The notes below the pieces were generated by a model. It ran no database searches. It worked only from the letters and a program-made list of their open reading frames with translations, and was not told the origin of the DNA. A stretch of 64,000 nt of DNA, from assembly GCF_006912135.1 (NCBI RefSeq), contig NZ_VIRS01000009.1:124001-188000 (forward strand), in the 5' to 3' direction. The stretch comes from Cryptosporangium phraense (GTDB lineage: Bacteria; Actinomycetota; Actinomycetes; Mycobacteriales; Cryptosporangiaceae). Made by a program: the position numbers and the translations under genes. Shown here piece by piece: positions 384 to 19,373 of this stretch (the first letter of the stretch is position 1; the number at the start of each line of letters is the position of its first letter).

Positions 384-412
384 TTGACGGGGGGTGGGAA
401 GCGGCATAGCGT
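384..412 (+). promoter_or_regulatory. Candidate ilvB promoter (-35/-10)
   Basis: TTGACG (384-389), 17 bases, then TAGCGT (407-412) fits an actinobacterial housekeeping promoter. Start of transcription would fall near 419-420, on the GTG at 420-422. If so, the leader peptide would be leaderless and ten residues long ([10 protein letters not shown]). This conflicts with the alternative that the transcript starts further upstream and includes the 387-396 segment complementary to the terminator. A mapped 5' end would settle it. Confidence 0.42.
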
Positions 413-452
413 GACCATCGTGCGATCCACCCTGATTCTCGTACTCAGCTAG
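411..452 (+). CDS. ilvBNC leader peptide (attenuator)
   Basis: GTG at 411 opens a 13-codon frame, [13 protein letters not shown], ending in TAG at 450-452. Seven of the 13 residues are Ile, Leu or Val, and it lies just upstream of a perfect hairpin and a terminator ahead of ilvB. This is the classical layout for ribosome-mediated attenuation by branched-chain amino acids, described for ilvB of several Actinobacteria. A GGGAAG (396-401) could serve as ribosome binding site for GTG 411. GTG 420, giving [10 protein letters not shown], is the alternative leaderless start. The ATT Ile codon is unusual in this G+C-rich DNA and may sharpen stalling. Confidence 0.68.
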
Positions 453-482
453 CGCGTCGACACCGCACCACATCGACGCGCT
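451..482 (+). promoter_or_regulatory. ilvB attenuator: leader-stop hairpin
   Basis: AGCGCGTCGA (451-460) and TCGACGCGCT (473-482) form a perfect 10-bp stem with a 12-base loop. The stem begins inside the leader-peptide stop codon, so a ribosome on the last codons would melt it. Separately, ACGGGGGGTG (387-396) is perfectly complementary to CACCCCCCGT (483-492), the left arm of the terminator, and could act as antiterminator if the RNA starts upstream of 387. Confidence 0.6.
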
Positions 483-483
483 C

Positions 484-515
484 ACCCCCCGTGCCGCAGG
501 CACGAGGGGTTTTTT
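484..515 (+). terminator. ilvB attenuator terminator
   Basis: ACCCCCCGTGC (484-494) pairs with GCACGAGGGGT (500-510) with one C-A mismatch around the 5-base loop CGCAG, followed by six T's (510-515). It is a textbook intrinsic terminator placed 49 bases before the ilvB ATG, so it must be read through for ilvBNC to be expressed. Confidence 0.87.
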
Positions 516-19172: not shown

Positions 19173-19242
19173 CGGCACCGCAAGAGGTCCAGCATGTGGA
19201 CGTGAGGTCCCAGGAACGGCCTCGATGTGTCAGTATCGGCTC

Positions 19243-19269
19243 ATGACTGGGTTCTGCATTACCAGCTAG
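19243..19269 (+). CDS. cimA leader peptide (attenuator), MTGFCITS
   Basis: ATG (19243) ACT GGG TTC TGC ATT ACC AGC TAG, an 8-codon frame directly before a perfect hairpin and an intrinsic terminator ahead of cimA. It contains one Ile codon, the unusual ATT, three codons before the stop. There is no ribosome binding site. A CAGTAT (19231-19236) ends 6 bases before the ATG and would put the transcript start at or next to it, so this is likely a leaderless peptide. The 13 bases CAGCTAGCGCGTC at its end are identical to the end of the ilvB leader. Being so short, it is called from context. Confidence 0.58.
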   Translation: MTGFCITS

Positions 19270-19293
19270 CGCGTCAGCTCGTCGCTGACGCGC
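19269..19293 (+). promoter_or_regulatory. cimA attenuator: leader-stop hairpin
   Basis: GCGCGTCAGC (19269-19278) and GCTGACGCGC (19284-19293) form a perfect 10-bp stem around TCGTC, beginning on the last base of the leader stop codon, as in the ilvB leader. Upstream GTGAGGTC (19202-19209) can pair, with a 2-base bulge, with the left terminator arm, a weaker counterpart of the ilvB antiterminator. Confidence 0.6.
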
Positions 19294-19294
19294 A

Positions 19295-19326
19295 GACCTC
19301 CCACGCTTCGGTGGGGGGTCTTTTTT
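19295..19326 (+). terminator. cimA attenuator terminator
   Basis: GACCTCCCAC (19295-19304) pairs with GTGGGGGGTC (19311-19320), one T-G wobble, loop GCTTCG, followed by six T's. It lies 47 bases before the cimA ATG and must be bypassed for expression. Confidence 0.87.
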
Positions 19327-19373
19327 GTGGCCCCGCACAGGCCCCGGAACCCTGCTGAGGAAAGGTCTTCGAC

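Follow-up and report, generated by a model that had tools for sequence, protein, structure and literature searches.

A putative ribosome-gated attenuator with isoleucine control codons upstream of the citramalate synthase gene cimA in Actinomycetota

The citramalate synthase gene (cimA) of Cryptosporangium phraense lies behind a short reading frame, a hairpin and a predicted terminator, an arrangement reminiscent of amino-acid attenuators, but the leader peptide holds only one codon for a branched-chain amino acid. This raises the question of whether so small a leader can adjust cimA expression to isoleucine supply, and of how it relates to the leaders of other branched-chain genes. Here we analyze the locus in a window of 64,000 nucleotides (contig NZ_VIRS01000009.1, positions 124,001 to 188,000) and compare it with its counterparts in other genomes. 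The evidence assembled below makes it probable that the element is a ribosome-gated transcription attenuator of cimA, which would place the citramalate route to isoleucine among the pathways under amino-acid attenuation in many Actinomycetota.

The product of the downstream gene matches TIGR00977 (citramal_synth) with 631.1 bits against a cut-off of 450 and, together with the sequence itself, this match confirms a first-pass annotation that had placed a leader encoding MTGFCITS, a 10-bp hairpin anchored on its stop codon and a terminator ending in T6 in front of cimA (Table 1). The same annotation had noted the hexamer CAGTAT six bases before the leader ATG and the lack of a ribosome site; reading of the sequence agrees, and no Shine-Dalgarno-like sequence was seen by eye before that ATG. 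The only branched-chain codon of the leader, and hence its sole isoleucine codon, is the ATT at 19258-19260, the third codon ahead of the stop. The hairpin, hereafter P1, begins with the G of the TAG stop codon, and the T6 run of the terminator occupies 19321-19326. On its other side the leader is flanked by a gene that looks by eye like a PadR-type regulator and is read away from it, so that the terminator serves no upstream gene on the plus strand.

Table 1. Features of the cimA and ilvB leader regions, in window coordinates (R1, covariance model described in the text)
Feature	Position	Strand	Basis or remark
ilvB attenuator: leader, P1 and terminator	411..515	+	R1 match at 419-519, E = 2e-9
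-10-like hexamer CAGTAT	19231..19236	+	ends 6 nt 5' of the leader ATG; leaderless start predicted
Leader ORF, MTGFCITS and stop	19243..19269	+	ATG ACT GGG TTC TGC ATT ACC AGC TAG
P1 hairpin, proposed antiterminator	19269..19293	+	arms 19269-19278 and 19284-19293, 10 perfect pairs
Intrinsic terminator (predicted)	19294..19326	+	stem-loop 19294-19321, directly abutting P1
Shine-Dalgarno-like GAGGAAAGG of cimA	19357..19365	+	sequence, by eye
cimA, citramalate synthase, 531 aa	19374..20969	+	ORF; TIGR00977

A terminator scan ranked the 19294-19321 hairpin first of four (1.7 expected in shuffled sequences), and the predicted fold of 19235-19373 comprises both hairpins (z = -3.02, with 2 of 200 shuffles equally good). 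A promoter scan based on an E. coli type consensus gave no match, and a search of the window for the leader core GCGCAGACCTC with up to two mismatches was uninformative (67 matches, 61.6 expected). The predicted fold also pairs GGGTTCTG of the leader (19249-19256) with CGGAACCC (19345-19352), just before the cimA Shine-Dalgarno sequence, a pairing that may be compared with the base stem to the Shine-Dalgarno sequence by which the LEU element, the leuA pseudoknot, is recognized.

Two stable hairpins followed by a terminator would also suit a riboswitch or a T-box that binds its ligand or uncharged tRNA directly, the reading frame being incidental, and T-boxes do occur before actinobacterial ileS according to the available text of PMC1262725. 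At the cimA leader, however, no Rfam family reaches its gathering score; in the whole window only two tRNAs do, and the six weak matches below cut-off, which we judged to be chance, include no T-box. The conserved part of the element is, moreover, the coding frame, and isoleucine codons give way to leucine or valine codons when the target gene changes, as detailed below. We regard direct sensing by the RNA as extremely improbable, and analyze the element as a leader that is read by the ribosome.

Comparison of the window with three other species of the genus shows the leader ORF to be 89-96% identical, P1 76% and the terminator 82%, whereas the four-fold sites of cimA reach 62-65% and the flanks 25-37%. 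Immediately 5' of the leader ATG, a stretch of 20 nt is 70-80% identical; over the preceding 100 nt the figure is 34-35%. The interval originally assigned to the attenuator, 19202..19326, thus contains a conserved element, but its first 20 or so bases are not conserved in the genus. Both the leader frame and the hairpin are kept in these close relatives, an outcome opposite to the loss of conservation that had been named as fatal to the proposal.

The single isoleucine codon, whose usual neighbours are replaced by Phe, Cys and Thr, might nevertheless mark a leader that has decayed in this genus, leaving a fixed partial termination and a peptide that no longer senses isoleucine. Such decay sits poorly with codons 4-8 and the stop (TTC TGC ATT ACC AGC TAG), which are identical in all four species while the four-fold sites of cimA have diverged to the extent given above, and with the ilvB leaders of the same genomes, which keep their branched-chain codons. 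The codon retained at the key place is also a rare one, ATT making up 6 of the 205 isoleucine codons in 13 genes of the window. We consider decay unlikely, and a leader that still senses isoleucine the better reading.

To establish how widely the element occurs, cimA loci were gathered from the best 80 of at least 581 relatives in 594 public-genome stretches and from 61 genomes near that of the window, which contributed 30 loci; one of these 110 loci (L010) was cut off and dropped. Leader, P1 and terminator occur together in 98 of the 109 usable listed loci, a count that includes the best 80 of the at least 581 relatives and, given near copies and 38 Streptomyces relatives among them, does not represent independent observations. 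The element is absent in the other 11 listed loci (L103, L108-L115, L017 and L018), and in L103 and L108-L115 cimA lies behind what appears by eye to be the end of leuB.

An alignment of 55 of the 98 elements (A1) was compiled without the 38 Streptomyces relatives, near copies (L014, L015, L101) and two loci with a long P1 (L038, L045). Over both helices, 93.7% of its cells are paired and 84 cells are changed on both sides, against 20.9 in shuffles, with helix support well above that of every slid version; the number of further pair types does not exceed that in shuffles (22 against 23.7). Among these 55 sequences, 5 of the 10 pairs of P1 have changed on both sides with 90.9% of cells paired, and 4 of the 11 pairs of the terminator with 96.3%. 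The covariation upstream of cimA that the first-pass annotation had proposed to look for is hence present in both helices. With a threshold of E <= 0.01, a covariance model (R1) built from these 55 cimA leaders has a match in 202 of the 296 class genomes and none in the remaining 94; of 246 genomes drawn from the phylum, 47 match at E <= 1e-4. In 74 of the 98 listed cimA leaders the chosen start has a [TC]ANNNT hexamer that ends 6-8 nt upstream of it, a figure inflated by the preference given to starts with such a hexamer where several were possible; the background is 3.4% per position (296 of 8820).

Outside the genus, leaders of the listed cimA loci usually carry two or three consecutive isoleucines, as in MTTRVIIIS from the same family (G004), MTHSVLIIGT from Paractinoplanes and MLSFAMIIGSRRAGPQ from Streptomyces. 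ATT accounts for 130 of 212 isoleucine codons in the listed leaders and for 23 of 1544 in the cimA genes of the same loci; when the Streptomyces relatives are left out, the figures are 61 of 136 and 21 of 858. The position of the isoleucine codon can be assessed freely only in the 54 listed leaders in which a TAG at P1 sets the reading frame, and there the key codon, three before the TAG, is Ile in 51, Leu in 2 and Val in 1. In the other 44 listed leaders, whose frames were chosen so as to favour Ile, Leu or Val codons, it is Ile in 41 and Met in 3. A codon of the pathway's own product is represented in the window by a single isoleucine codon, and across the family by isoleucine at the key place in 51 of 54 leaders. 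Leader, P1 and terminator thus co-occur and covary, and the isoleucine codon keeps its place before P1.

The cimA leader had been described as the second of its build in the window, the first being that of ilvB, and this description is correct: R1, trained on cimA leaders only, recovers the leader at 411-515, and the product of the gene downstream of it scores above the cut-off of NF005860. In the genome of the window the model returns the cimA leader (E = 2.5e-18), the ilvB leader and one chance-level match (E = 1.7). The ilvB leader holds rare ATT and GTA codons, and a similar leader is kept in the three other genus members compared. In other genomes R1 also identifies, as members of the same model, leaders before ilvB, leuS and leuA.

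Control codons change with the gene that follows, being Ile before cimA and leuB, Leu, Val and Ile before ilvB, and Leu before leuA and leuS. This was quantified in the five codons before P1 on 93 rows, after skipping matches shorter than 85 nt and second matches of a locus. Isoleucine codons average 1.84 before cimA (37 rows) and 3.0 before leuB (2 rows); ilvB leaders (37 rows) average 0.76 Ile, 1.54 Leu and 1.46 Val, and there is no Ile before leuA (4 rows) or leuS (6 rows). Of the remaining rows, 2 lie before a small ACT-like ORF and 5 before other sequences, and at least two of these 5 look like chance matches. No permutation out of 10000 reaches the observed difference between target genes, a result to be read in light of the rows being related and chosen partly by score, and of a frame fixed for all 93, which mis-reads several of them (internal stops) and lowers the isoleucine count of cimA.

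Individual loci illustrate the range of this build. Leucine leaders with CTC CTT precede leuS in several families (L168, L169, L170, L160 and L165) and leuA in L172. In two genomes outside the class (L189 and L199, at about 301-395) leuB is preceded by an isoleucine leader (VIIIE and VIIIP); these leuB products are 60-61% identical to that of the window, the leuB label having been assigned with a query that itself comes from one of the two rows, and isoleucine leaders would fit a role of LeuB in the citramalate route. In L150 and L153 (near 1500, minus strand), the leaders MFALVIIM and MFTPRIII, each followed by a stop, precede what looks by eye like a small ACT-domain ORF.

The dependence of codon identity on the target gene is the strongest sign that these leaders sense charged tRNA, and joins wide conservation and covariation in supporting the attenuator originally proposed before cimA. 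By the same comparative evidence the attenuators already known from actinobacterial branched-chain genes gain cimA as a putative new target, and the loci make up a series, provided by nature, of a single RNA build whose control codons are Ile, Leu or mixed depending on which gene lies downstream.

The geometry of the leader with respect to the ribosome provides a possible mechanism. The usual footprint of a ribosome reaches some 12 nt beyond the first base of its A-site codon. The stop TAG lies at P1 in 54 of the 98 listed leaders; in the others, including those of Streptomyces, Thermobifida and Nocardiopsis, the frame mostly continues across the 5' arm of P1 to a stop farther on, and the key codon keeps a constant place before P1 despite these differences. 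In 94 of the 98 listed leaders the entire 10-nt 5' arm would lie within the footprint of a ribosome positioned at the stop, while the place of the key codon is such that a ribosome waiting there would cover only 2-3 nt of P1. By this footprint, P1 can form ahead of a stalled ribosome and not ahead of a terminating one, which suggests that pairing of P1 in the window is possible only during a pause of the ribosome at the ATT.

Under the proposed mechanism, transcription would start at or next to the leader ATG and the ribosome would load on a leaderless mRNA. With charged Ile-tRNA plentiful, it would reach the stop and cover the 5' arm of P1; with P1 blocked, the terminator would fold and transcription would end near 19326. 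With Ile-tRNA in short supply, the ribosome would wait with the ATT in its A site and its front edge about 2 nt into P1, P1 would fold, the terminator would fail and cimA would be made. In this genus the single ATT would do the sensing that is performed elsewhere by two or three isoleucine codons.

How P1 could prevent termination is the least certain step. P1 and the terminator are separated by 0 nt in 87 of the 98 listed loci and by 1-4 nt in 7, and may overlap by 2 nt in 4. With a stalled ribosome masked, both hairpins are present in the predicted minimum structure of all 98 loci, and a switch is thus not predicted on simple thermodynamic grounds; once the ribosome has reached the stop, P1 is predicted to be lost in all 98, and the terminator to be kept in 93 and lost in 5. 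An antiterminator sharing the 5' arm of the terminator was rejected, the upstream complement to this arm being less than in shuffles (mean z +0.8, with 0 of 98 below -2). Pairing of the P1 loop with the 3' arm was likewise set aside, as a modest, lineage-dependent excess that is absent in the window, and predicted pairings of the window's leader with either arm of its terminator yielded no strand-sharing antiterminator.

These results bear directly on a classical three-strand attenuator, in which the antiterminator helix would take up a strand of the terminator, either through the P1 loop and the 3' arm, as has been suggested for the Corynebacterium ilvB-II motif, or through a short overlap at the boundary, like that of C. 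glutamicum ilvBNC. Inner loops of P1 do pair with the 3' arm at a mean of -9.7 kcal/mol, compared with -7.8 kcal/mol for random GC-rich sequence (n = 97), and 38% of these pairings lie beyond one standard deviation, for instance in Geodermatophilaceae with C-rich loops. A boundary overlap is possible in the 4 of 98 listed loci, and the available texts of PMC10272879 and PMC11857589 propose overlaps of this general kind. Composition, however, explains most of the excess for the 3' arm (shuffled mean -9.0), no complement to the 5' arm is found, and the loop of the window, TCGTC, contributes only -0.6 kcal/mol with the 3' arm. The three-strand scheme appears somewhat unlikely, if the most serious of the alternatives weighed here. 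Since the hairpins of the window are adjacent and no shared strand was found, we propose instead that P1 may work through abutment: once the P1 helix is complete, its presence at the foot of the terminator, with no spacer, would block the last terminator pairs from forming inside RNA polymerase, in the exit channel. The locus in this way poses the question of how a terminator can be controlled by a hairpin that shares no strand with it.

The logic put forward here is akin to that of the trp and ilv attenuators of E. coli, in which codon-specific stalling decides between two RNA folds, but the cimA leader has a predicted leaderless start, far fewer control codons and no overlapping 2:3 strand that we could find. 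Closer relatives are the attenuators of ilvBNC in C. glutamicum (PMC11857589) and ilvB1NC in M. tuberculosis (PMC13236596), whose available texts describe a branched-chain leader, a ribosome-gated antiterminator and a neighbouring terminator; reporter and mutation experiments support ribosome-gated logic for M. tuberculosis ilvB1 and essentially the same logic for C. glutamicum ilvBNC. In comparison with these systems, as described there, the window's leader has a different target, cimA, and isoleucine codons, with the rare ATT in place of the CUU and GUA named as control codons. The adjacent hairpins of C. glutamicum ilvBNC, for which a third hairpin is also proposed (PMC11857589, available text), share a boundary trinucleotide, whereas no shared nucleotide was found in the window. 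The Streptomyces ilvB and leuS leaders (available texts of PMC1262725 and, for leuL2, MRAVRLLLSEPR, of PMC8079986) are likewise built of leader, hairpin and terminator, and differ in having Leu or mixed codons where the cimA leader has Ile.

Changes to the leader codons of S. coelicolor ilvB were without effect on regulation, as told in the available text of PMC1262725, which by analogy would speak against a codon-sensing attenuator; the series of leaders with different control codons offers a direct way to settle codon sensing after that negative result. In line with the first-pass annotation, a literature search on cimA or citramalate combined with attenuation, which covered few subscription papers, returned no description of a cimA attenuator. 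The available part of the survey of Seliverstov (2005; PMC1262725) treats ilvB, leuA, leuS, trp, cys and ileS, with some attenuator parts missing, and neither cimA nor citramalate occurs as a word in its main text or in that of PMC8079986, whose S. lividans table, as available, lists eight leaders, none before cimA. PMC10272879, in its available text, treats ilvB only, and a word search of the texts of PMC8269248 and PMC4681348, exclusive of supplements, gave nothing on cimA; the former, in the portion available, cites a further survey by Lopatovskaya et al. (2010; Mol Biol 44:128).

The first-pass annotation had regarded an isoleucine-sensing leader with a single rare codon as an unusual, minimal attenuator. 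Unusual it is, but it now looks like the reduction of an isoleucine-rich leader, kept in all four species of the genus that were compared, where Cys and Thr now flank a sole remaining isoleucine codon, the ATT at the key place; the genus thereby shows leaders that are reduced to one rare codon. A similar reduction occurs in a second family (f23), where the element is found in 7 of 8 genomes examined. Four of these seven leaders contain Cys-Ile-Thr, namely MASTCITT, MTSCITT, MSTACCITT and MTQHCITP (L133, L227, L224 and L228), each with one ATT preceded by Cys and all before cimA; the remaining leaders read MSYRLITH and MSSQQIIP, and a third contains SIISP.

In a tree of 52 cimA proteins (2 of 54 could not be extracted, and L228 is not included), f23 lies far from the genus of the window and well supported branches force three label changes, a count insufficient by itself to establish which way the change went. 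Isoleucine-rich leaders surround both groups, which makes two separate origins the simplest reading and suggests that the Cys-Ile-Thr leaders of the genus and of f23 arose separately. Searches for the Cys-Ile-Thr word before P1 revealed no further group with a strict pattern (1 of 296 genomes) and, with a second pattern, returned 7 of 394 genomes, three of them from f23 and four that, going by the letters matched, were judged unrelated. Both patterns are narrow, the second being unable to match the window or L228, and both draws of genomes leave out the other species of the genus.

The citramalate route yields 2-oxobutyrate, which can also derive from threonine deamination and from the cleavage of cystathionine, the latter yielding cysteine as well. 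It is conceivable, though we hold it to be quite improbable, that the word TGC ATT ACN acts as a sensor of Cys, Ile and Thr charging, of multiple origins and tied to these sources of 2-oxobutyrate, in combination with an abutting antiterminator. Loss of threonine deaminase was considered as a cause of the reduced leader and rejected, TIGR01127 scoring above its cut-off in all four genus members compared. Within their respective stretches, the Cys-Ile-Thr leaders of f23 lie near 1500 in L133, L224 and L227, and near 155-230, on one strand, in L228.
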